A stretch of DNA of 56,786 bases from a virus, in the IMG/VR virus record IMGVR_UViG_3300046453_000187, positions 1-56,786 of that record. One strand, 5' to 3'. The translations under genes were made by a program, and so were the position numbers. How positions within the stretch are numbered: position 1 is the first letter of the stretch; every line of letters begins with the position of its first letter. The notes beneath the pieces were generated by a model, which saw only the letters and a program-made list of their open reading frames with translations, was not told the DNA's origin and did no database searches. Of this stretch, positions 3,397 to 33,394 are shown one piece after another.

Positions 3397-3703
3397 AGCC
3401 TAGAGCGTTTATTTTGTTGGCTTGAACGACTCGCATGCCGAGATGCCCGGCCAGCTCGACCTCTAGGTTAGCGCCGCGCGAAATGCTCCAGTCAGGCAGC
3501 AGCGCGACCGTGTCACAAGTCAGCATCTGGCGCAGGGCTACGCGCATGTACAGCTCCCATGCTTCGCCAGGTTGGGCTGGGTTCTCTGCGGGGTTTTCAA
3601 TGGTGTAGCCCAGGGTGCGGAGGCGGGCCGCCTCGGCGTTGAAGGCCGGGTAGTTGTAGTCGGGCAGGCCGGTCATCGGCCCGCTCAGGTAGATTCGCTT
3701 CAT
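3389..3703 (-). CDS. DUF4406-like nucleoside deoxyribosyltransferase-fold protein
   Basis: A 104-residue protein opening with MKRIYLSGPMTG, the signature of the DUF4406 / nucleoside 2-deoxyribosyltransferase-like family. It also shows the family's DWSISRGANLEVELA segment with the conserved glutamate. The family has a Rossmann-like fold and is common in phages, where the substrate is usually unknown. The start at 3703 overlaps the upstream stop (ATGA) and has a GAAGGG site, so the frame extending to 3763 is not used. Confidence 0.85.
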   Translation of the reverse strand: MKRIYLSGPMTGLPDYNYPAFNAEAARLRTLGYTIENPAENPAQPGEAWELYMRVALRQMLTCDTVALLPDWSISRGANLEVELAGHLGMRVVQANKINALGFS

Positions 3704-4299
3704 GCTGAAAGCCCTTCGTGGAAGGCTTCCCAAGCCTCTTGGTCTGCGCTGGCGATATACCAAACCAAGGAACCGTCGCCTTCTTGGTCCCGCACCGAGC
3801 CGCCATACTTACAGCCGGGGAACTTGAACTTGGCAAGCATGGTTATTCGAGGCCAACCAATTTCGAATTCGGTGTAGTTCAGGTCTGGCCGCGCCTTTAT
3901 GACCGCCGACTTGAATGCCTCACCTTTGGCGTTCGCATCAGCGATCTGGTCAGCCCGTATTTCTTTGCACTCCGCGTCGCAGTAAGCATGCCGCCCGTCA
4001 TAAACGATCTGAAGTTGGTTTCCGTCCTCGTCCTCAGCATCTTCGTAAAGCTCGGTTTCGCAGTTGTTACAATAGAGCCACCAGCCTTGATCGTGGTACG
4101 CCTTGGCTGGGATAAACGCTTGGCCTGCGTACTGGTCTGCCCATGGCGCACGGCGGCAGAAGCTCACCTCCTCGAAGGTGAGATTCAATTCGTTGCCGCC
4201 CTCACGTCGCGCCTGTGCATTGGTTTTGGCGAACGTAATTACTTGCTTGCCTTCGTAGTCCTCCCCGACGTGGAAGGCCTTCAATGTTTCTGTGTTCAT
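3700..4299 (-). CDS. Hypothetical phage protein with Cys-rich centre
   Basis: A 199-residue soluble protein. A central segment contains CNNCETE and then YCDAECKE, a four-cysteine arrangement that could bind zinc. The C-terminal part is Trp-rich (EIGWP, LVWYIASADQEAWEAF). Translationally coupled to the DUF4406 gene by ATGA overlap. Function unknown. Confidence 0.75.
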   Translation of the reverse strand: MNTETLKAFHVGEDYEGKQVITFAKTNAQARREGGNELNLTFEEVSFCRRAPWADQYAGQAFIPAKAYHDQGWWLYCNNCETELYEDAEDEDGNQLQIVYDGRHAYCDAECKEIRADQIADANAKGEAFKSAVIKARPDLNYTEFEIGWPRITMLAKFKFPGCKYGGSVRDQEGDGSLVWYIASADQEAWEAFHEGLSA

Positions 4300-4343
4300 G
4301 GATATACCTCGGCGTTATGCTCACGACCTCAATGGAGGAAGCC

Positions 4344-4610
4344 ATGACATTTGAAATGGATTCGAAAGGACGGCCGAAAGACCAAAAATGCAGGTACTGC
4401 GAAGGGATGTTCACTTCGAAGTCGCTGAAGAAGCACCTCGAACGCTGTATGGGACCGCCTGGCGCACGTGTTTGCGACTTAACGGGAGCGGCGAGGGCGA
4501 GGCGATTAAAAGTTTTGTTCAGCGATGGACCACTGAAGAAAAAGAAACGCCGAAGCGTGTTCACTGTGCTGGGCGGCGCCTACGGCTTAGGTAAAAACAG
4601 GAACCACTGA
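4344..4610 (+). CDS. Small putative zinc-finger protein
   Basis: An 88-residue basic protein. Residues near 16-37 read CRYCEGMF...KHLERC, a C-x2-C-x9-H-x3-C arrangement like a C2HC zinc finger. The C-terminal half is lysine- and arginine-rich (PLKKKKRRS), which suggests nucleic-acid binding. The start at 4344 has GGAGG five bases upstream; earlier starts would overlap the divergent gene. It lies opposite to its neighbours and abuts the methyltransferase stop. Confidence 0.65.
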   Translation: MTFEMDSKGRPKDQKCRYCEGMFTSKSLKKHLERCMGPPGARVCDLTGAARARRLKVLFSDGPLKKKKRRSVFTVLGGAYGLGKNRNH

Positions 4611-5534
4611 TTAAGCGGACTCAAGCATTGCTTCGATGATTCGTTGCCCGGCAAGGGGTGGCACCGCGTTGCCAGCCATATGCATGGTCAGGCGATGGTT
4701 GTCGGGTCGTTTGGTGTCAGCCGGGAAGGACATTGCAGCCAGCGCTTCGTTGGCCGACAGCATTCGCATCTCATCCCCACGCACCAGCGCCCAGCGGTCC
4801 AGCGTGGTGATGGTACCGATCGGGCGTTGCAGACAGCGACCGGTAAGGCCTGACCCTGAGCCGTAGTAGGGCATGATGAATCGCTCGCCGAACCGCTCGC
4901 GGCCGTTCTTCACGCGGGTCAGGGTCGATTCGGCGCGGCCAGGCTTGACGACCTTGCTCCACTTTCCCGAATCAAAATCGATGAACGATGACGCCGGTAC
5001 ATGCTGGCGTTGGTGTAGCTGCAGGTTGAGAGGAGCCTTACTGCGGGTGCAGACGAGAAACAGCCGCACGCGATGCTGTGGCACGCCGAGGTCGGCGCAG
5101 TCGACGACGTGCGGGGCGATCATGTATCCGAGGGCGGCCATTGCCTGTGACCAAGCCGGGTAAAGCGCCCAGTCAGTGAACTCTTCGACGTTCTCCACCA
5201 GCACCACTTCCGGCCGGTGGAACTCGGCAGCCGAAACCACAGCCCATGCTGTCGATCGCGATGCGTCATGCTGGGCGTTACCGGACTTCTTGCCGCGGGC
5301 TTTCGAGTGACCCTGGCAGCAGGGCGAAGCCAGCATGATGTCGTGCGCTGGGACCATCGACCAGTCCGCCTGCTGGAGATCCTGGCAGATGTGGATTGCG
5401 TCGGGATGGTTGGCGCTGTGCCACTCGACCGCTACCGGCCAATGGTTGGCCGCCCAGAGAACTTCGATCCCCGCATTGCGGGCACCAGTGGACCATCCGC
5501 CGAGACCGGCGAACAAATCGATTGCTGTGGGCAT
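4611..5534 (-). CDS. C5-cytosine DNA methyltransferase
   Basis: A 307-residue enzyme that would transfer methyl from S-adenosylmethionine to cytosine C5 in DNA. Motif I is DLFAGLGG (6-13), the catalytic loop is SPCCQGHS with Cys72, motif VI is ENV (114-116), motif VIII is QHRVR (153-157) and motif X is GNAVPP near the C-terminus. The target-recognition region is short for the family. No cognate restriction gene is adjacent, so it is probably an orphan methylase protecting phage DNA. The start at 5534 is chosen because motif I must be near the N-terminus; its ribosome site is weak. Confidence 0.93.
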   Translation of the reverse strand: MPTAIDLFAGLGGWSTGARNAGIEVLWAANHWPVAVEWHSANHPDAIHICQDLQQADWSMVPAHDIMLASPCCQGHSKARGKKSGNAQHDASRSTAWAVVSAAEFHRPEVVLVENVEEFTDWALYPAWSQAMAALGYMIAPHVVDCADLGVPQHRVRLFLVCTRSKAPLNLQLHQRQHVPASSFIDFDSGKWSKVVKPGRAESTLTRVKNGRERFGERFIMPYYGSGSGLTGRCLQRPIGTITTLDRWALVRGDEMRMLSANEALAAMSFPADTKRPDNHRLTMHMAGNAVPPLAGQRIIEAMLESA

Positions 5535-5581
5535 GGCTATAGCTCGCGTATGATTCGTTATTGTCGAAAGGAGGAAGTGCA

Positions 5582-6229
5582 GTGGCACAATTGGAAAGCT
5601 TCAAAAATCTTTACAAAAAAATGGACGCAACATCAAAAACGCGATTTCACGCTTCTCGGCGCTTGAAATTACATGCGAAGTTGTCGACATACACGGTAGT
5701 TTGCCTGTCCCTTGTTTTGATCTTGGTCTCCCTGATGCAGGCATATGATCTAGGGGTCAACATACAAAAAAAAGAAGTAGTGCTGCTGCAGGTATTCGCG
5801 TCCATTGCAGTGCTTGTTTACTCATTACTGATTGAAAAAAATGATTTTTCCAGTAGGTCCGAGAAGATGTATTCCTGCGCGTCCAAACTTGGCGAGCTTA
5901 AGCAGAAGGCTCATCCATATAAAAATGATCAAGAGTTCAATCAAGCTGCCTACGGCGAATGTTGGAAGGAGTATCACGACGTTTTAAAGCTCTATGAGAC
6001 TCATTCAAGCAACGACTTCCGAGGCGATTACCTCCGGGCGAAGCTTGAGATGCCTGAAGACTATCCGCTTAACGGCTGGAGAAGGTTGCTTGGCACCTCT
6101 AAAGTTTGGTTCCTTTACTCTGTAAATTTCGTTACTTATCCGATAGTTGCTTTGGTGTTAATGACTGCTTTGTATTGGATATGGTTTGGATTCGCGCCTG
6201 CCTCTGTGCCACTGGCGATTTGGCGCTAA
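5582..6229 (+). CDS. SLATT-like membrane protein, putative defence or exclusion effector
   Basis: A 215-residue protein with a basic helical N-terminus (HASRRLKLHAKLS), two close membrane helices (about 40-60 and 67-85) followed by the amphipathic segment EKNDFSSRSEKMYSCASKL, and a third hydrophobic helix near 185-205. This matches the SLATT group of small two-helix membrane proteins, predicted effectors of nucleotide-signalled immunity; it looks closest to SLATT_5. The GTG start at 5582 has AGGAGG at normal spacing. A TATGAT -10-like box lies at 5549. Visibly more A+T-rich than its neighbours, divergent from the methyltransferase by 47 bases, and overlapping the next convergent gene by four: the look of a moron. 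Confidence 0.75.
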   Translation: MAQLESFKNLYKKMDATSKTRFHASRRLKLHAKLSTYTVVCLSLVLILVSLMQAYDLGVNIQKKEVVLLQVFASIAVLVYSLLIEKNDFSSRSEKMYSCASKLGELKQKAHPYKNDQEFNQAAYGECWKEYHDVLKLYETHSSNDFRGDYLRAKLEMPEDYPLNGWRRLLGTSKVWFLYSVNFVTYPIVALVLMTALYWIWFGFAPASVPLAIWR

Positions 6230-7089
6230 TCGCCGCAAAAACAGTCGATGTCTTCGGAGTAGCCGAAGGCATCTATCTGGCCTTTGTAGTTCTCTGCATA
6301 CCACGCTAAGTGGGAGTACTTCGGGCGGTCCATGCGGAAGACCTGATTGAATTTCTCTTCAGCCCCGGACCAGAAAATCACGCGTTCCGGCTCTGCCTGG
6401 ATAGCCTTGAATAGCTTGTCTTCTCCCTTCTTCCAGCAGAGGTCGCAGTTTCCAAGGTCTGAATCCATCCCAAGGTCGAACTCCTGAGCTTTCCAGAATT
6501 CAGCGACATCCTCTTTTGTAATGCCTGCAGCGTACGACGGGCATACATTGTCCCATCGTGTTCCGCCCCTGGCATTAGCGGCCATCATTCGGTGATATCG
6601 CCCGGCTTCGTCTTTGCGTATTCCTATTACGCAATCCCACTCGTCATAGCCGAGGGCGCGCATGTGTTTCTCGCCGATCTTAATCTTCAGGTAGGCGGTA
6701 CACATGTTGTTCGAGAAATTCGGCAGCACTGCCGCGAGTCCCTTTTCCTGCTTTCGGTACTCCGCGTAGTAGTCCAGCATCATCATGAATGGCTCGCCTT
6801 GTCGGCTGGCGGTTTCGAAATCTACCAAGCGATACCATGGGGCGTTATCGGCCTGGCCGTAGACTCGGCACCACTCCATCCATACCACCGGAATGCCCCA
6901 GCGTTTGGACATCTGTTCGACGAATACCAGTGTCTCTTCACGCTCCTTGCCAGTGTTCTGGAAAAAGAAGTGAACATCAGGCGGCAGGATGAAATTGTGT
7001 GCTTCCAGTATTTTCCAGGCCATGTGACCGCTGGTTCGGCCGCCGCTGAGCCCGATCTGGGCAGGGCCTGTGATCAGATAGGGGTTCAT
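6226..7089 (-). CDS. PAPS-reductase-like PP-loop protein
   Basis: A 287-residue member of the adenine-nucleotide alpha-hydrolase (PP-loop) superfamily of the phosphoadenosine phosphosulfate reductase type. The nucleotide loop is GLSGGRTSGHMAW (about 13-25), followed by FFFQNTGKE. Cysteines occur at NNMCTAYLK, NCDLCWKK and the C-terminal DCFCGD, which may hold a metal or cluster. Phage versions are common and their substrate is unknown; sulfur transfer or nucleobase/DNA modification are possibilities. A GAGGA site precedes the ATG. No dnd-type phosphorothioation partner genes are adjacent. Confidence 0.85.
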   Translation of the reverse strand: MNPYLITGPAQIGLSGGRTSGHMAWKILEAHNFILPPDVHFFFQNTGKEREETLVFVEQMSKRWGIPVVWMEWCRVYGQADNAPWYRLVDFETASRQGEPFMMMLDYYAEYRKQEKGLAAVLPNFSNNMCTAYLKIKIGEKHMRALGYDEWDCVIGIRKDEAGRYHRMMAANARGGTRWDNVCPSYAAGITKEDVAEFWKAQEFDLGMDSDLGNCDLCWKKGEDKLFKAIQAEPERVIFWSGAEEKFNQVFRMDRPKYSHLAWYAENYKGQIDAFGYSEDIDCFCGD

Positions 7090-15909: not shown

Positions 15910-15949
15910 TTACCTGTAGGTAACTCATATCGTCAATACCCGTGGGTAA
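15910..15949 (-). promoter_or_regulatory. Leftward early promoter with two repressor operators
   Basis: Leftward -35 TTGACG (15936-15931) and a TAATGT-like -10 at 18-base spacing. Palindromic 14-mers of form TTACC-N4-GGTAA lie at 15910-15923 (over the -10) and 15936-15949 (at the -35; first base A). The same palindrome recurs three times beside the repressor start, so this is probably the repressed early leftward promoter. Confidence 0.65.
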
Positions 15950-15965: not shown

Positions 15966-15993
15966 CATAAAAAAACCCGCACATGGCGGGTTT
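15966..15993 (-). terminator. Rho-independent terminator of the repressor operon
   Basis: Leftward reading gives AAACCCGC-CATGT-GCGGGTTT followed by a T run, just after the stop of the 306-residue gene. It separates the repressor-kinase operon from the leftward early promoter that lies immediately beyond. Confidence 0.85.
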
Positions 15994-16016: not shown

Positions 16017-16937
16017 CTAAGCGTCCTCAAGTATCCTTTTGGCAAAAGGCATTGCCGCCTCGGCCTGATCTATCCCTCCGTCAGCAAGCACGTACTCGAC
16101 TCCCGCTCGATTGGCGGCGAATTCAAGCTCGGTCGTGTATGCGCCGAAGATATCTTCCTGATGAGGGTTGAGATCTTTACCTGGAATCCAAAGACCTAGC
16201 ATTAGATGGTCTTTGTTATGCCCAATATCAATCTCGCGCAGAGCCAGGAGCTGGTTGATGCGCCTGTGAGCAGCGTCGCGCTGCTGCGAGCAGGAAGTAA
16301 CGGTAACGTCTAGAGACGTTAGATTGATGGCAAGGTGGGTTCCAACATATGAGATTGGTACTTTTGCCCGCCCACCGTATAGCGCCATCTTTGGATTGAA
16401 GCGAATCTTCATTCCCTCTCGGGAAGCAAGGACGATTTGCTTGATCTTTTCCTGGAACCTGGTCAGTGACCTATCCCCAGACTCACCGGTGCCTGACGCA
16501 TCATTGATCTTAGCGCTGAAAATTGAAGAGTGGGTCAGCGCTGATTGAAGAATCGCTTCCAGAGAGGTGTTCTTTGTGGGGATAACTCTACCCGCATAAA
16601 CTCCCGACATCTCTGGTCGCCAGGATTTGAGCTGCCCGCCAGTTAGTAGATAAGCCTGAAGCTCGGCGTTCACGCTACCTGCGAGATTAAAGAGATCCTT
16701 ACCATATCGTCCAAACACCTTCTCCAAGGGCTCAGCAGACAGGGTGCCAATGACGCGTGGCGCAGATCCGTCATCAGGGACAATTGCAATTCCGGAGGTG
16801 ATCCGCTCTCCGGAAAAGGTGATCGGCTCAAGGTGGACAGCCATCCATCGTGCGCCGAAAAGGTTTCGCGAAGCACGACCCTTTAGAAATGTTTCGGCGG
16901 CATCAAAGACAGATGACCCAACTGGAGACGATTGCAT
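16017..16937 (-). CDS. Partner protein of the HipA-like kinase, function unknown
   Basis: A 306-residue soluble protein, last gene of the repressor operon. It starts inside the kinase gene (55-base overlap), so the two are tightly coupled. Residues about 30-75 (MAVHLEPITFSGERITSGIAIVP) vaguely recall DUF3037 proteins, which often accompany HipA_2 kinases, but the protein is far longer and I do not claim membership. The C-terminal part has QRDAAHRRINQLL and DIGHNKDHLMLGLW. No good ribosome site is visible, as expected for coupled translation. A phage exclusion, toxin-antitoxin or defence partner role is inferred from location only. Confidence 0.75.
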   Translation of the reverse strand: MQSSPVGSSVFDAAETFLKGRASRNLFGARWMAVHLEPITFSGERITSGIAIVPDDGSAPRVIGTLSAEPLEKVFGRYGKDLFNLAGSVNAELQAYLLTGGQLKSWRPEMSGVYAGRVIPTKNTSLEAILQSALTHSSIFSAKINDASGTGESGDRSLTRFQEKIKQIVLASREGMKIRFNPKMALYGGRAKVPISYVGTHLAINLTSLDVTVTSCSQQRDAAHRRINQLLALREIDIGHNKDHLMLGLWIPGKDLNPHQEDIFGAYTTELEFAANRAGVEYVLADGGIDQAEAAMPFAKRILEDA

Positions 16938-17728
16938 AGCAGTGGCACCGTGTGATGAATTCGTTCACGCAGGAATTTGATGATGTCCTGCCTATCCGTG
17001 GCTGGGTCAATTTTGGCGAAATAGCCGTCCTGGTCAAGCTCATCCAGACAAAGCGCCGCGCATTTATTAACCAGGCCATGGGCCTTTTTCAGGACTCTGT
17101 TCCGTACAGATTCATCCCATTCAGAGACGCTATTGTCGACCAGAAGGTTCCTAACTTCTACAGCTGGATCGTCAAGCCCCCACAAATCCCAATAGGTGCC
17201 GGTAAGTGATCGGCCGTGATCAATTAGCCAGAACTCCTGCTTGCCCGGGGCGTAGATGATATTCCCCTGGTGACGATCATCATTCGCGACGAACTCGTCA
17301 AGAGCGATAGTCCCATCCAGGTCGAACTGAGTATGCACAGCCTTGGCGAAAGCTTGAGTTGGATTTCTCATCGCTCGTTCAAGGCTATAACTGCGATTCC
17401 CAGCTTGCTGACTAGCGAAGCAAACCATCACCCCGCGACCATAGAAAGAAGACTCAAAGCCTTCAAGGTCATCGGTATTCAGCAGAACGACAAACGGCCT
17501 AGGGATGTTCATTCCAAGGGCTCTGCCTACTTGAGCAGTCGTCAATTCCGCAATGATCCGACGTGGGTCTAGGCTCAGCTTTACATAGCCGGTAACTGTC
17601 TCACCGGCCGCATCAAGCAGCTCGGCTTTATAGGTCTCACCATCTCCACCCTCGCTAATTTGCCCGAGAATGGTGGTGACTTCAGCGTGGCCTATAGGCT
17701 CAAGACTGGTCTTTGTTGAGTTCTTCAA
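16883..17728 (-). CDS. HipA-like Ser/Thr kinase-fold protein
   Basis: About 281 residues. The glycine loop region is ISEGGDGETYKAEL, with a candidate ATP lysine in GYVKLSL (K50), the catalytic-loop equivalent FVANDDRHQGNII (D150/D151, N156) and the metal-binding aspartate in LIDHG (D170). This matches the HipA_2 branch of HipA-type kinases, which lack the classical HipA N-terminal subdomain. It lies between the CI-like repressor and the 306-residue gene in one leftward operon. There is no ATG near the N-terminus; the TTG at 17728, inside the repressor's 3' end, is the best guess. It could phosphorylate a host factor to block superinfecting phages. Confidence 0.8.
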   Translation of the reverse strand: MKNSTKTSLEPIGHAEVTTILGQISEGGDGETYKAELLDAAGETVTGYVKLSLDPRRIIAELTTAQVGRALGMNIPRPFVVLLNTDDLEGFESSFYGRGVMVCFASQQAGNRSYSLERAMRNPTQAFAKAVHTQFDLDGTIALDEFVANDDRHQGNIIYAPGKQEFWLIDHGRSLTGTYWDLWGLDDPAVEVRNLLVDNSVSEWDESVRNRVLKKAHGLVNKCAALCLDELDQDGYFAKIDPATDRQDIIKFLRERIHHTVPLLCNRLQLGHLSLMPPKHF

Positions 17729-18155
17729 AGCGAGAAGCAATCCCTTCAAGTAATACCAGATCCGTCTCTTTGAGTCGGCCAGCAATAGCGGCTTTCTCAA
17801 TTCGCTTGATAACTGCAAGGCTGCGCGGAGTAACAATGCCCTTGAGGTTCGCAATGGCCTTGAAGGCTACGGAATCGAAAGGGTCATCGGATTCTTTGGG
17901 CGGCACAGCCTCTGCACCTTCTTCTGAAATCGGACTATCCATCTCGTAGCGCTTAAGCCCCAGCGCTTCCTCAATTTGGCGAGCAAATTCCTCGCCGATC
18001 TTTTTTCTATTTTCGGGCGCGATAGTCAGCGACAAGCACCTGGCGATGTAGCTCGGGCTTTTACCCAGCTTATCCGCTAGGCGCACCTTGGCCCCTCCAA
18101 AACGAGTGGTCATGAGGGTCCGGAGGTTTTCGCGTCGTATCTCTGAAATGTCCAT
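17700..18155 (-). CDS. CI-like prophage repressor
   Basis: About 151 residues, with an N-terminal helix-turn-helix (ENLRTLMTTRFGGAKVRLADKL ... SPSYIARCLS) and a helical C-terminal region (RSLAVIKRIEKAAIAGRL) that probably dimerises. No S24 peptidase domain, so it should not self-cleave like lambda CI. It would bind the TTACC-N4-GGTAA operators. The ATG at 18155 is chosen; a TTG at 18182 would lie inside an operator. No ribosome site precedes either, so a leaderless or near-leaderless message is possible. Confidence 0.85.
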   Translation of the reverse strand: MDISEIRRENLRTLMTTRFGGAKVRLADKLGKSPSYIARCLSLTIAPENRKKIGEEFARQIEEALGLKRYEMDSPISEEGAEAVPPKESDDPFDSVAFKAIANLKGIVTPRSLAVIKRIEKAAIAGRLKETDLVLLEGIASRFEELNKDQS

Positions 18156-18175: not shown

Positions 18176-18232
18176 TTACCAAAAGGTAAATTCCCTATGG
18201 GTATTGCTTTGATGATTACCTGCGGGTAATAA
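18176..18232 (+). promoter_or_regulatory. Right operator cluster and rightward early promoter
   Basis: Three palindromes: TTACC-AAAA-GGTAA (18176-18189), TTCCC-TATG-GGTAT (18191-18204) and TTACC-TGCG-GGTAA (18216-18229). A rightward promoter, TTGCTT (18204-18209), 17 bases, TAATAA (18227-18232), overlaps the last two. The first lies next to the repressor start and probably controls its own promoter. The layout is like lambda OR. Confidence 0.75.
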
Positions 18233-18258: not shown

Positions 18259-18489
18259 ATGCGGAGCAAGAACCAAAGCCTGCTTGCCTGGCTGAAAACG
18301 GCAACAGACGCCCAGGTCGAAGGGACTGGCACCACGCGGGCCTACCTTCGACTTATCGCCTATGGGCACAAAACAGCTTCGGCAGAAATTGCCGCCCGAA
18401 CTGAATCCGCCACATCTGGAGCTGTTTCAAGGCGCGACCTGCGCCCTGAAGACTGGAGACAGATTTGGCCTGAGCTTTCTGCTGCCTAA
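18259..18489 (+). CDS. Cro-like repressor
   Basis: A 76-residue HTH protein (LLAWLKTATDAQVEGTGTTRAYLRLIAYG ... SAEIAARTE) of the YdaS/Cro type found in Pseudomonas phages; the C-terminus RPEDWRQIWPELS is typical. First gene from the rightward promoter, AGGAGG upstream. It would compete with the CI-like protein at the shared operators to commit to lysis. Confidence 0.88.
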   Translation: MRSKNQSLLAWLKTATDAQVEGTGTTRAYLRLIAYGHKTASAEIAARTESATSGAVSRRDLRPEDWRQIWPELSAA

Positions 18490-19046: not shown

Positions 19047-19853
19047 ATGCCCATTTCCCAATACGCCGTCAACTCTCACCAATCCGCGCCACGTTTTGAG
19101 CATTCGCAAATCGTGGCGCGAACCATGTCTTCCCAGGAAATTGCCGATCTGGTTGGCTCTCGTCACGACAGTGTGAAGCGAGCCATTGAAAGGCTTGCCG
19201 CGAAGGGCGTGATCGATATCCCACCGACGGTGGAGAAGCCCACGGGCGGCCGCCCGATTGAGGAATACGTTTTCTCAGGAGAAAAGGGTAAGCGCGATAG
19301 CCTTGTCGTGGTCGCACAGCTGAGTCCTGAATTTACTGGCGCGCTGGTTGATCGATGGCACGAACTGGAAGAGTCTACCGCCAAACCTGTCTTCGATATT
19401 TCCAGCCTTAACGATCCAAAGGTTCTACTGGCCTTGCTGACTGATAACGTTCGCAAGGTCGTGCACCTGGAAGCTGACAACACTGAACTCAGTCAGGAAA
19501 ACCACCTGCTTGAGCAGAAGGTTGTCGCCGACGCGCCCAAGGTTGAGTTCTTCAACGCCGTCATTACTTCGACCAGCATCCATTCAGTCCGGGAGGTGGC
19601 CCAGTCCATCGGCACCGGGCAAAACCGTCTGTTTGCGTTCATGCGGCAGCAGCGCTGGGTCGACCGTCACAACACGCCATATCAGGGCCGTGCCGAATCG
19701 GGGCATCTGGTAGCCGAACCGCACTCCTACAGCTGCCCTGAAACGGGTGAGCGAAAAACTAAGTTCACCTGCAAGGTTACCGGCAAGGGCTTTGCCAAGC
19801 TTCAGGCGCTGTGGGCGGGTCGAGACAAGGAAATCCTGGGCGGTGCCGCATGA
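19047..19853 (+). CDS. Rha/KilAC-type phage antirepressor
   Basis: A 268-residue protein with two domains. An N-terminal pRha-like winged helix (about 25-110: MSSQEIADLVGSRHDSVKRA ... RPIEEYVF) is followed by a short coiled linker (LEADNTELSQENHLLEQ). The C-terminal KilAC/ANT domain is at about 165-262 (SIHSVREVAQSIGTGQNRLF, RAESGHLV, CKVTGKGFAKL). Such proteins antagonise repressors or reprogram transcription. It lies just downstream of the early terminator. Confidence 0.9.
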   Translation: MPISQYAVNSHQSAPRFEHSQIVARTMSSQEIADLVGSRHDSVKRAIERLAAKGVIDIPPTVEKPTGGRPIEEYVFSGEKGKRDSLVVVAQLSPEFTGALVDRWHELEESTAKPVFDISSLNDPKVLLALLTDNVRKVVHLEADNTELSQENHLLEQKVVADAPKVEFFNAVITSTSIHSVREVAQSIGTGQNRLFAFMRQQRWVDRHNTPYQGRAESGHLVAEPHSYSCPETGERKTKFTCKVTGKGFAKLQALWAGRDKEILGGAA

Positions 19854-27802: not shown

Positions 27803-28606
27803 TTAGTCGTTAGCCTGTGTGCGTTTAGGTAAGACCAGAAGGCTCCGATAGGCGGCTTCATCAAGTTTATAAAGTTCGGATGGTGTGATCTCAATCCAGC
27901 TTGGCCCGGGCTCCATGCCTTTTGGCATATCCGAGAAGTTAAATAGGATACCTCCGTCAGCCGTCTTCTCGTTCAAGGCGAAGGAAGGATAGGCCCAGTG
28001 CGTAAACTGCTCTTTGATGACTTCCGTTATCGCCTGCAGCATTTCTTCTGAAGCGCCTGCGGAAGCAAGTGTGTTCAGCACAATCTCATTGGCTTGCTCT
28101 GTGGTGACTCTTGGGTCGTGGTATGACCAAGCCCTAAGTATTGAAAAGTCGCGCCCCTGCTTGTGAGGGGCATAGAAAAACCTAGTCGCCCGGTAGGGGG
28201 CCGGCCCGTAGATGCCAAAGTATCTCAGCGCATCTTCGATTGGCTCGATCTTAGATGAGTGCAGGAAATCTACGAGGCGGTCGCCTTGCACCGGGCGCAC
28301 GCCAAGAAGCCTGCAAAGATCAGCTTTGCGCAACTGCCTGGCCATCACGGCGTTCCATAGCTCTATCTTTGCAATGGTCACAGCAGGCAAGCGAACGACA
28401 TATTGCCCTGGGCGCGGCTCTGAGGCCTTAGGAATAGCACGTCGCTGGTCAACGTAGATCGATAGTGCCGTCTCAATTCCATCGATAGATTCGCGCAGCG
28501 CATGAGCGATATTGTCACCGGCGCTGTTGAATTCTGGCAGGTCTTCGCAGGTAACGGCTACGCCCGGGTTTTCATCTGCATGAATTGTTACTGGGTAATC
28601 AAACAT
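27803..28606 (-). CDS. hicB: HicB antitoxin with a long C-terminal extension
   Basis: 267 residues. Residues 1-60 are a HicB-type degraded RNase-H-like domain (MFDYPVTIHADENPGVAV ... TALSIYVDQRR), and 68-130 a DNA-binding HTH (LWNAVMARQLRKADLCRLLG ... DRLVDFLHSSKIE). Ordinary HicB ends near here. About 135 further residues follow (PAPYRATRFFYAPHK ... WIEITPSELYKLDEAAY) with no family I recognise. It neutralises HicA and autoregulates. The pair is opposite to the late genes and separated by 69 bases. Confidence 0.88.
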   Translation of the reverse strand: MFDYPVTIHADENPGVAVTCEDLPEFNSAGDNIAHALRESIDGIETALSIYVDQRRAIPKASEPRPGQYVVRLPAVTIAKIELWNAVMARQLRKADLCRLLGVRPVQGDRLVDFLHSSKIEPIEDALRYFGIYGPAPYRATRFFYAPHKQGRDFSILRAWSYHDPRVTTEQANEIVLNTLASAGASEEMLQAITEVIKEQFTHWAYPSFALNEKTADGGILFNFSDMPKGMEPGPSWIEITPSELYKLDEAAYRSLLVLPKRTQAND

Positions 28607-29448: not shown

Positions 29449-29679
29449 ATGGATAACCAGCACAAGAAGATCACCGGCTACCGCGATCTTTCGCAGTCTG
29501 AGATTGATGGTATGAATTCAATCAAGGCGCTCGAGGCGGATACCGGCGAACTGTTCAAGCAGATCGGCCAGATTGAAGGCGTCGACCCTCGATTGCTGGC
29601 TCTGGCAAAGACAAACCTGCAGCAGGGCTTCATGTGGTTTGTGCGTTCTATTGCAAAACCTGCCGACCCGTTCGCCTAA
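29449..29679 (+). CDS. acb2: Acb2-like cyclic-nucleotide sponge (anti-CBASS)
   Basis: A 76-residue helical protein. The pattern HKKITGYRDLSQSEIDGMNSI at the start and DPRLLALAKTNLQQGFM followed by VRSIAKP at the end is that of the Acb2 family (relatives of T4 Vs.4). Acb2 forms hexamers that sequester the cyclic di- and trinucleotides made by CBASS immunity. It lies immediately upstream of the large terminase under late motif D. Identification is by pattern recall; the binding residues were not checked against a structure. Confidence 0.75.
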   Translation: MDNQHKKITGYRDLSQSEIDGMNSIKALEADTGELFKQIGQIEGVDPRLLALAKTNLQQGFMWFVRSIAKPADPFA

Positions 29680-29682
29680 TCA

Positions 29683-31221
29683 ATGTCAGCCGACGCCATG
29701 CTCACCCAACTCATCACCGGCGATGAGCTCTACTGCGCACGTAATTTGAAGATCCGCACGAAGGAAGGGGAAATCCTGCCGTTCGTGTGGAATGACGCGC
29801 AAAGGATGCTGCATGCACGGCTTGAAGCTCAGGCGGCAGATAAGGGATGGGTGCGGGTCATTACGCTCAAGGGTCGGCAACAGGGCGTCAGCACTTACAC
29901 AGCCGCACGATTCTACAAGCGCACCAGCATGGGCTTCGGCAAGCGCACGATGATCCTGACTCACCTCGACGCAGCAACCCAGAACCTGTTTGGGATGGCC
30001 AAGACCTTCTTCGAGTTGAGCGACGCGACATTGCGCCCGACCACAAAGGCCAACTCCGGCACCGAACTGTCATTCGCCAAACTCCGCAGCGGCTACAAGG
30101 TCGCAACGGCCGGCAGTCCAGGCGCAGGACGTTCCGACACCATTCAATACCTGCACGGCTCTGAGATGGCTTTCTGGCCCAATGCCCAGAAGATCATGGC
30201 TGGACTCGGGCAAACCGTCCCGCTGATTGAGGGGAGCGAGGTGGTCATTGAGTCCACCGCCAACGGGATGGGCAACTTGTTCCACCAGATGTGGGTCTTG
30301 GCGGTATCTGGAAAGTCCGACTACATGGCCGTGTTCATCCCGTGGTTCGTAGAGCGCGGATATCGCCGCTCAGTGCCGAAAGGCTTTGAGATGAGCGAGG
30401 ACGACTACGAGTACATGGAGGCCTACAGCCTCGATGAAGAGCAGATGGCCTGGCGCAGGGCGAAGATTGATACCGACTTTGCTGGCGACGAGGACTGGTT
30501 TAACCAGGAGTATCCGGCAACCCCTGATCTGGCTTTCCAGAAGGTTGGGCACAAGCCGCTGATCAAGACCGTCAAGGTCTCGCTGGCTCGCAAGCAAGAA
30601 ATCAAACACATGCAGCGCATCGGCGCTCACGTTGTCGGCCTCGACCCGGCGCGCGGAGGCGATACGTCGACATTCATCCATCGCCAAGGCCGAGTGGCTT
30701 GGGGTATTGAGCGCAACAACGTTCCAGACACCATGGCGGTGGCTGGACAGGCCGCCCGCATGCTCATGGATGACAAGACCATCCGCATGATGTTCATCGA
30801 TATCGGCGGGCTGGGCGCCGGGATCTATGACCGGCTTGTCGAGTTGGGATTTGGCGATCGCGTCACCGCCGTCAACTTCGGATCAGCCGCCACCGACACC
30901 CGCAAGTACTTCAACAAGCGCTGCGAGATGTGGGGCGACATGGCCGAGTGGATTCACGACGACATCACTCCTTGCATTCCGGATGACGACCAGCTCCATG
31001 GCGACCTGACGTCTGCATCCAAAGACAAGTACACCAGCAATGGGCAGCTCAAGCTTATGCCGAAAGAAGACGCCAAGAAGGCAATTGGCCGATCCCCCGA
31101 TGACGGTGACGCACTGGCTCTGACATTTGCAGAGCCTGTTTCCGCCGACGATGTTCATGTTGACGACTGGAAGGCCAAGTTAATGCGCCGAAATGCCCGT
31201 AAATCTGCGATGAGTGCCTGA
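29683..31221 (+). CDS. Terminase large subunit
   Basis: A 512-residue packaging motor. Its ATPase has a Walker A-like loop KGRQQGVST (63-71) and a Walker B region YLHGSE (156-161). The nuclease has a RuvC-like fold with D321 (GLDPARGGD), D373 (FIDIGG) and DDGDAL near 480. It translocates DNA into the procapsid and cuts the concatemer. It starts three bases after the Acb2-like stop with a weak ribosome site, so coupled translation is likely. Confidence 0.95.
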   Translation: MSADAMLTQLITGDELYCARNLKIRTKEGEILPFVWNDAQRMLHARLEAQAADKGWVRVITLKGRQQGVSTYTAARFYKRTSMGFGKRTMILTHLDAATQNLFGMAKTFFELSDATLRPTTKANSGTELSFAKLRSGYKVATAGSPGAGRSDTIQYLHGSEMAFWPNAQKIMAGLGQTVPLIEGSEVVIESTANGMGNLFHQMWVLAVSGKSDYMAVFIPWFVERGYRRSVPKGFEMSEDDYEYMEAYSLDEEQMAWRRAKIDTDFAGDEDWFNQEYPATPDLAFQKVGHKPLIKTVKVSLARKQEIKHMQRIGAHVVGLDPARGGDTSTFIHRQGRVAWGIERNNVPDTMAVAGQAARMLMDDKTIRMMFIDIGGLGAGIYDRLVELGFGDRVTAVNFGSAATDTRKYFNKRCEMWGDMAEWIHDDITPCIPDDDQLHGDLTSASKDKYTSNGQLKLMPKEDAKKAIGRSPDDGDALALTFAEPVSADDVHVDDWKAKLMRRNARKSAMSA

Positions 31222-31222
31222 C

Positions 31223-33394
31223 ATGGCTGATGAAAAGCAAAGTCCATCCGACAAGCAAAAGGCCAGAGAGAATTGGGCTCGTTATGAGTATGGGCTAAAT
31301 CGCGGTCACGCTGACTACATCGACCAGGCGCGGCAGTGCGAAGACTTCTATCTGGGCGGCGGATGTCAGTGGACTGTTCAGGACAGGCAGGTCCTTGCCG
31401 CATCAGGCCGCCCCGCGCTTGAGTTCAACCAGATCAAGAACAAGGTCAATTCCGCCGCCGGATATCAGATCGGCAACCGTATGGATATTGGCTTCCGGCC
31501 TCGCGCCGGTGCTGCAGATGCCGAGACTGCCAGTACGCTATCGAAGCTCGCAATGCAGGTCGCTGACAACGTTCAGCTCCACTTCAAGGAAAGCGAAGTA
31601 TTCCGAGATGGCCTTATCCAGCAGCGCGGCTACTTTGATGTCCGCATGAGCTACGCCGACACCATTCTGGGCGAAGTCGCCGTGGACGTGCTCGACCCCC
31701 TGGACGTGATCCCTGACCCGGATGCCAACAGCTACAACCCTGACGACTGGGCTGATGTGATCATCAATCGCAATCTCACGATGGACGAGATCGAGGTCCT
31801 GTACGGCACTGGCTCAACCAAAAAGATCGATGAAGACGAGATGTCCGGGTCGGTATTCGGCAATGAGAGTATTGATAGCGAAGCTGAGCGTAACGGTTTC
31901 GGCAATGACGACACCGGCATCGCCGACTACTCGCTGGCGGATGGCAAGGACAAATCCACAAAGCGCTATCGCGTCATTGATCGTCAGTTTTGGCAGATGG
32001 ATAAGGCCAAGGTGATCGTGACGGCTACCGGTGACATCCGACTCATTGAAAACATGAGCGAGCAAGCCGTAGCGGCGATGGTGGAGCAGGGCGGGGTAAC
32101 TACAGAGCGCCGCACTAAGCGAGTCCGCTGGCTGATCACAACCCAGGACCAGGTCCTGCATGATGACTGGTCACCATTCAGTCATTTCACGGTCGTGCCT
32201 TTCTTCCCAACATTTCGTCGCGGCAAGACGCGGGGTATTGTTGATGACGCTATCGGTCCCCAGCAGTTGGTCAACAAGTCGATGAGTGCATTCCTGCACA
32301 CCATCAGCACTTCTGCGAACAGCGGATGGATGAGTGTCGCAGGGACCATGGCGAACATGCGCGACGATGAGCTTGCTGATCGGGGCGCAGAGACCGGCCT
32401 TCATATCGTGCTCAAGAAAGATACCAAGGCCGAGGACCGGCCGCAGAAGATCGCGCCAAACCAAGTGCCGAGTGGGATTGACCGATTCATTGACCGGTCT
32501 GTGGCAATGCTTGAACAGTCCACTGGTGTTAACGAGGCGATGTCAGGCAACCAGGGTAATGAGGTGTCCGGGATAGCCATTCAGACCCGTCAGTTCGCCG
32601 CACAACAGCAATTGGCAGTGCCCTTGGACAACCTTGCCAGAACACGTGGAATGCTCGCCAAGCGCATGCTGGAGATGTTCCAGCAGTTCTACGATCAGCC
32701 TCGCATCATACGGATTACTGAAACTGATCCTCGCGGCGTTGAATCCACAGCCGAGCTGCCTCTGAACTGGCCCGCGGCAGACGATCGGATTCTGAATGAT
32801 CTGACCATCGGCGAGTACGACGTAATTGTCACCGAGGCGCCAGCGCAGATCACGTTTGAGAACAGCCAATTCCTTCAGGCGATTGAGCTCAACGAGAAAG
32901 GGGCAAACATCCCTTGGTCGTTCATCATTGGCTATTCAAATCTTGCCAATAAGCAAGAGATTATCGATGCCATGGAGCAGCAACCCGCCCCGCCAGTAGA
33001 TCCAACTCTACAGGCCAAGGCAGAGCTGCTGTCCGCTCAGGGGCAGAAGGCTCAAGCAGATGCGTCCAAGGCGCAGACCGGCGTTGAGCTGGCCCGAGCC
33101 CAGATCGACCAAGTTAAGGCTGAGACCGTCGCCAAGTCAGTTGAATCCGTCTATTCAGCCATTCAAACGGCAGGCGTTATCGCGATGCAGCCCGCCACAT
33201 CGAATCTGGCAGACGCGATCCTGTTGTCATCGAATTACGTAGATCACGACGCGGCGCCGATCGTGCCTGAGTACGACGGCTCGGTGTTGTCGGCCGAATT
33301 GCCAACAAATACCAATCCATTAACACCAGCGAATCCAGGCGTTGGCCTGAATGCCGGTATCGAAACCCCAACGATCGAAGGAGTTCCAGCATGA
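31223..33394 (+). CDS. Portal protein, P22-like
   Basis: A 723-residue protein of the P22 portal type: long, with the N-terminal EDFYLGGGCQWTVQDRQVL, DPLDVIPDPDA in the core, and a helical Ala/Gln-rich barrel-like C-terminal region (about 590-640: AKAELLSAQGQKAQADASKA). It forms the DNA-entry vertex and binds the terminase. Confidence 0.93.
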   Translation: MADEKQSPSDKQKARENWARYEYGLNRGHADYIDQARQCEDFYLGGGCQWTVQDRQVLAASGRPALEFNQIKNKVNSAAGYQIGNRMDIGFRPRAGAADAETASTLSKLAMQVADNVQLHFKESEVFRDGLIQQRGYFDVRMSYADTILGEVAVDVLDPLDVIPDPDANSYNPDDWADVIINRNLTMDEIEVLYGTGSTKKIDEDEMSGSVFGNESIDSEAERNGFGNDDTGIADYSLADGKDKSTKRYRVIDRQFWQMDKAKVIVTATGDIRLIENMSEQAVAAMVEQGGVTTERRTKRVRWLITTQDQVLHDDWSPFSHFTVVPFFPTFRRGKTRGIVDDAIGPQQLVNKSMSAFLHTISTSANSGWMSVAGTMANMRDDELADRGAETGLHIVLKKDTKAEDRPQKIAPNQVPSGIDRFIDRSVAMLEQSTGVNEAMSGNQGNEVSGIAIQTRQFAAQQQLAVPLDNLARTRGMLAKRMLEMFQQFYDQPRIIRITETDPRGVESTAELPLNWPAADDRILNDLTIGEYDVIVTEAPAQITFENSQFLQAIELNEKGANIPWSFIIGYSNLANKQEIIDAMEQQPAPPVDPTLQAKAELLSAQGQKAQADASKAQTGVELARAQIDQVKAETVAKSVESVYSAIQTAGVIAMQPATSNLADAILLSSNYVDHDAAPIVPEYDGSVLSAELPTNTNPLTPANPGVGLNAGIETPTIEGVPA

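Follow-up and report, generated by a model that had tools for sequence, protein, structure and literature searches.

A HipA-like kinase and a putative, very divergent DUF3037/HipD-type partner in the rexAB position of a temperate Pseudomonas-type phage

The stretch of viral DNA analysed here (IMG/VR record IMGVR_UViG_3300046453_000187, positions 1 to 56,786; below, the window means this whole stretch of 56,786 nucleotides) encodes a phage integrase, an ERF recombinase and a Rha/KilAC antirepressor, and its DNA matches are mostly to Pseudomonas phages, so it was assigned to a temperate phage of the Pseudomonas type. Three overlapping open reading frames are transcribed leftward, encoding a CI-like repressor of 151 amino acids (17700..18155, minus strand), a HipA-like kinase of 281 amino acids (16883..17728, minus strand) and a partner protein of 306 amino acids (16017..16937, minus strand). 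The repressor and kinase genes overlap by 29 bp and the kinase and partner genes by 55 bp; the operon is closed by a bidirectional intrinsic terminator (15973..15993) with an 8-bp stem and a T-run in the leftward direction. An earlier note on this DNA, made from the letters and the reading frames, had described the same overlapping trio and its terminator, and both are as it said.

Operator-like palindromes lie on both sides of the operon: TTACCTGTAGGTAA (15910..15923) and ATACCCGTGGGTAA (15936..15949) on the OL side, and TTACCAAAAGGTAA (18176..18189) and TTACCTGCGGGTAA (18216..18229) on the OR side. These four, two on either side, are the only palindromes of the TTACCnnnnGGTAA type in the 56.8-kb window, against 0.18 expected, and we infer that they are putative repressor-binding sites. 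Two TTACCnnnnGGTAA-type sites are likewise present on each side of the operon in loci L001, L007 and L009, which encode the window's repressor DNA-binding domain, and L079 has two on the repressor side, the side that the scan of this locus covered. Operator pairs were not recognised in loci with other types of DNA-binding domain (L010, L014, L015, L025 and L031). A small divergent gene, placed by position alone from the list of reading frames, takes the cro position (18259..18489, plus strand), and a Rha/KilAC-type antirepressor-like protein is encoded at 19047..19853 (plus strand; Pfam ANT, 80 bits), a possible route to the inactivation of a repressor without an S24 domain. Since the operator-like palindromes flank the operon and a small rightward frame occupies the cro position, the immunity region has the OL/OR arrangement of lambda, with the kinase and its partner replacing rexAB, as the earlier note proposed. 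Elsewhere in the window, the leftward early region contains proteins judged by eye to be cytosine-C5 methyltransferase-like and PAPS-reductase-like (4611-5588 and 6226-7089), and a frame with a HicB antitoxin-like start lies on the minus strand (27803-28606) within the late rightward region.

The repressor, which is recognised by PHROGs transcriptional regulator families, has two parts. Its N-terminal DNA-binding part (residues about 1-97) is followed by a conserved tail (residues 98-147; 17715..17864, minus strand) that opens with an invariant [TS]-P-R-[ST] motif. Pfam finds no S24 (LexA-like) peptidase domain in the window repressor, whereas the CI proteins of Cruim01, psageK9 and phiPSA1 at the corresponding locus have one. 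In a comparison of the window with Pseudomonas sp. LD120 (L021), the DNA-binding parts are 17% identical, which is background, whereas the tail, the kinase and the partner are 88%, 90% and 89% identical, respectively; the DNA homology of the two starts at the tail and spans 17850 to 15842. L021 has another palindrome, ATAAGCnnnCTTAT, two copies near each operon end, and zero sites of the window's type. The opposite combination is seen in L079, where the DNA-binding part is 71% identical to that of the window and the operators are common to both, but the tail is only 42% and the kinase 24% identical. Given these reciprocal exchange patterns, the tail, the kinase and the partner form a mobile block. 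Neither the exchange of repressor halves nor the two operator sets had been mentioned in the earlier note. At the level of sequence comparison, the exchange suggests that the repressor tail may contact the kinase module, and the link between tail and kinase is seen again in about three distinct clades of kinases, one of them including Pseudomonas phage vB_PaeS-D14P.

Exclusivity of the tail to kinase operons was considered and rejected, as a kinase-less repressor family accounts for most of the tail matches in 399 Pseudomonas genomes. Repressors of this kind were found beside small regulator-like genes at L070-L072, L074-L078, L080, L082-L084 and L086, where they probably sit in prophage remnants; L073 and L079 of this series, by contrast, have a kinase. 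Because a common Pseudomonas repressor family has the tail without a kinase, the tail may serve more generally in oligomerisation, and adjacency may account for part of its linkage to the kinase.

The kinase frame as listed can be extended to 17854, but the family alignment favours the shorter form of 281 amino acids, most likely starting from the TTG at 17728; the residue numbers D150, D151 and D170 of the earlier note fit this form. The Pfam HipA_2 model scores 25.9 bits against the protein, just short of its 27-bit cut-off, and the classical HipA_C domain (PF07804) gives no match. Ten residues are invariant in 20 relatives: K50, E61, D144, N149, D151, R152, N156, I169, D170 and H171. In the family alignment D151, N156 and D170 are the candidate catalytic residues, and K50 and E61 belong to the ATP site, so that the candidate catalytic residues reported previously as intact indeed are, with D151 and D170 among the invariant ones. 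The PADLOC model PDC-M66A gives the window kinase an E-value of 0.0035 and its relatives values up to 3e-14; comparison with PDB sequences yielded chance-level matches only. The family HMM detects the HipA protein of Escherichia phage PhiR5_1 at 1e-20, and the catalytic and metal residues are common to the two kinases, while beyond the catalytic core the alignment is loose (42/228 identical). In an unrooted tree with long branches, a 100/100 branch divides the kinases that occur with a partner of the window type, as one group, from those of HipAD.

Comparison of the partner with Pfam, NCBIfam and PADLOC gave no match, and in the window it is unmatched by the HMMs for DUF3037 (at the cut-off of Pfam PF11236) and PDC-M66B; it does match PHROGs family 21150, whose function is unknown. 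Profile-profile comparison nevertheless relates it to DUF3037. With hhalign, the comparison to ten DUF3037 proteins alone is weak (probability 19.5%, E 0.0012, 236 collinear columns), whereas column-shuffled controls (n=40) never exceeded 0.3% probability. Adding the HipD protein of PhiR5_1 to the DUF3037 profile raised the probability to 87% (E 4e-6, 234 collinear columns), and further adding the bridge protein of phage D14P raised it to 96% (E 3e-9). AlphaFold modelled the partner with a pLDDT of 85 and a DUF3037 protein with one of 87; the two models have a nearly identical order of strands and helices, and separate BFVD searches with them returned the same top two matches, A0A516KZK0 and A0A516KTX2 (1e-19 and 2e-9 for the partner; 2e-8 and 1e-9 for the DUF3037 protein). 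The partner comprises a DUF3037-like N-terminal domain (about 27-125) and a restriction-endonuclease-like C-terminal domain (about 152-306). The model of the latter aligns best with restriction-endonuclease-like folds, namely CdiA-CT (Z 9.8), ERCC1 (Z 8.8) and Can2 (Z 8.2), and the C-terminal domain of the DUF3037 model with Cdn1 (Z 8.7) and BstEII (Z 8.5) among such folds; all these Z values are moderate. Comparison of the partner with PDB sequences gave chance-level matches only, and a Foldseek search of its model against PDB gave none below E 0.001. An active nuclease is not favoured for the C-terminal domain, in which the family alignment, inspected by eye, lacks an invariant acidic/lysine set. 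On the strength of the profile-profile alignment, the common viral matches of the two AlphaFold models and the gene order, we read the partner, which the earlier note had called unknown, as a very divergent protein of the DUF3037/HipD type with a putative role of antitoxin or sensor.

A lack of co-occurrence of the two genes elsewhere had been named in the earlier note as grounds for dropping its proposal. A search of a genome collection with the partner profile found 25 loci, and in 22 of them the kinase gene is directly upstream, always in the same order and usually with an overlap of a few bases; the complete set of repressor, kinase and partner is present on all nine viral contigs found via the kinase. 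With 22/25 genome loci and 9/9 viral contigs, the pairing is far from chance. The same holds for DUF3037 genes proper, as in 299 genomes of the phylum all 16 cases have an HMM-recognised kinase directly upstream. Many pairs occur without a tail-bearing repressor, among others in Rahnella, Shewanella, Pseudoalteromonas, Alteromonas and Methylococcales. For six such loci, ten neighbour proteins were picked by eye and run through PADLOC, and four of the ten had strong matches to defence families: Septu PtuA and PtuB (L026), a type I-like methyltransferase (L027) and a retron reverse transcriptase (L033). As the neighbours were chosen by eye, this association with defence genes is suggestive only.

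Several variants of the pair were also encountered. In Acinetobacter phage vB_AbaS_qsb1 (L002:6016-7660) it lies among tail genes, outside the immunity region, and adjoins Arc-like and antirepressor-like genes. A 4.4-kb contig of Methylovulum contains two copies of the partner (L030:98-823 and 3434-4359), one of which follows a kinase gene. The DUF3037-like N-terminal half is encoded as a separate short protein with no kinase nearby on large P. aeruginosa plasmids (L005:4944-5345 and L006:4788-5348), and a short stand-alone protein of this type was also found at L041 and L045; an orphan antitoxin or an anti-kinase would be a possible role for it.

Pairs of a HipA-like kinase and a DUF3037 protein have been described as both a defence system and a toxin-antitoxin pair (PMC12548924, PMC13092281). 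Without the HipA kinase, defence against Bas51 was abolished, and removing the DUF3037 gene proved toxic (PMC12548924); for DS-6A, a catalytic mutant lost defence, and AlphaFold3 predicted a strong contact between DS-6A and DS-6B (PMC13092281). The system, named HipAD, DS-6 or PDC-M66, resembles the window pair in the order of the overlapping kinase and partner genes, in the HipA-like catalytic residues and in the two-domain fold of the partner; it differs in that the window partner stays below all Pfam and PADLOC thresholds, the window kinase falls into a separate tree group, and the window repressor lacks S24 and has the shared tail. HipAD is reportedly due to Brenes and Laub (2025; PMID 40409266).

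The location, too, has a precedent. In Escherichia phage PhiR5_1 (PV340545) the annotated order is cro, cI, HipA toxin, HipD antitoxin, kil, gam, which puts hipA-hipD in the rexAB position directly after cI, although about 120 bp separate cI from hipA, whereas in the window the repressor and kinase genes overlap; by homology, Klebsiella phage Kp4864-1 has the cI-hipA-hipD order as well. Pseudomonas phage vB_PaeS-D14P (BK061589, genes 29533-31818) has a tail-bearing repressor, a kinase and a partner in the window order. Its kinase is 22% identical to that of the window and the partner match is not significant by simple pairwise alignment, but the D14P partner has weak matches to DUF3037 and PDC-M66B, and these genes are a natural bridge to HipAD. 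Thus the window pair is a variant of a described kind, for which the rexAB-like location is already recorded, and the suggestion of the earlier note that the system may be undescribed is not sustained. New here are the S24-less repressor and the tail that travels with the kinase and the partner while the DNA-binding domain and the operators are exchanged.

Other systems share single aspects of this arrangement. Like lambda rexAB, the two genes share an operon with cI and are located between it and the OL-side operators, presumably expressed in the lysogen from the repressor promoter and presumably excluding phages. Rex proteins are sensor and ion-channel proteins, whereas the window encodes kinase- and antitoxin-like ones, and the operon proteins have no match to Rex families in Pfam, NCBIfam or PHROGs. 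HipBST likewise encodes a DNA-binding protein together with a kinase and a further protein or antitoxin in a single operon, but its gene order is B-S-T, and the window differs from HipBST and HipBA in the missing HipA_C match and in the DUF3037-like partner. In the lambdoid immunity region of cryptic prophage CP-933P, paaR2-paaA2-parE2 has a toxin-antitoxin pair behind a CI-like regulator; the toxin is of the ParE type rather than a kinase (PMC8630535).

The homology to HipAD favours a defence or toxin-antitoxin type of operon, as the earlier note had suspected, and by analogy to the published pairs we infer a toxic kinase, an antitoxin role of the partner and a role in defence. The operon is probably a prophage HipAD-like module in which a kinase restrained by its partner excludes other phages by abortive infection from the rexAB position. 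In the lysogen, the repressor promoter would drive the repressor, the kinase and the partner together, and the partner would bind the kinase and hold it inactive. Infection by another phage would disturb the complex, and the freed kinase would phosphorylate a host target (the translation machinery in the HipA and HipT precedents), stopping growth or phage production. A pure addiction module, which would prevent loss of the prophage or its immunity region with no real anti-phage role, would share the toxin-antitoxin architecture of a kinase and a neutralising partner, and paaR2-paaA2-parE2, which is addictive and controlled by a CI-like regulator, is a precedent for which a role in limiting rearrangements of the immunity region has been proposed (PMC8630535). 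We regard this as unlikely, since the published HipA/DUF3037 relatives do protect against phages (PMC12548924, PMC13092281) and three stand-alone relatives adjoin known defence genes. A decayed or neutral passenger operon is very improbable, since relatives down to about 20% identity, and from several bacterial orders, have kept the frames open, the catalytic residues intact and the genes in the same order.

The kinase and the partner could instead serve mainly as a lysis-lysogeny switch acting on the repressor through its tail, for example by phosphorylating it or controlling its oligomerisation, and so replace the RecA-triggered self-cleavage of S24-type CI. The absence of S24 from a repressor whose counterparts in related phages have it, the joint movement of tail, kinase and partner while the DNA-binding domain and operators change, the repeated combination of tail and kinase in about three clades, and the invariant motif at the start of the tail would all fit. 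Yet many pairs do without a tail-bearing repressor, the tail is found on Pseudomonas repressors without a kinase, a KilAC-type antirepressor is encoded nearby, and E. coli HipAD is accompanied by a separate CI with the length usual for S24-like ones, so we consider a switch as the main function quite improbable. A combined function, in which the repressor tail is a docking or phosphorylation site and the module both excludes phages and controls its own repressor, is rather doubtful; if true, it would be a kinase-based substitute for induction of the RecA/LexA type, attachable to unrelated repressor DNA-binding domains.

The favoured reading as a partner-restrained exclusion module adds to the HipA/DUF3037 defence pair a branch missed by Pfam and PADLOC, and ties an orphan of 306 residues to a known antitoxin fold. 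In Escherichia, Klebsiella and Pseudomonas phages alike, such pairs stand where lambda has rexAB. Finally, the constant block of tail, kinase and partner makes it testable whether the kinase complex touches the lysogeny repressor.
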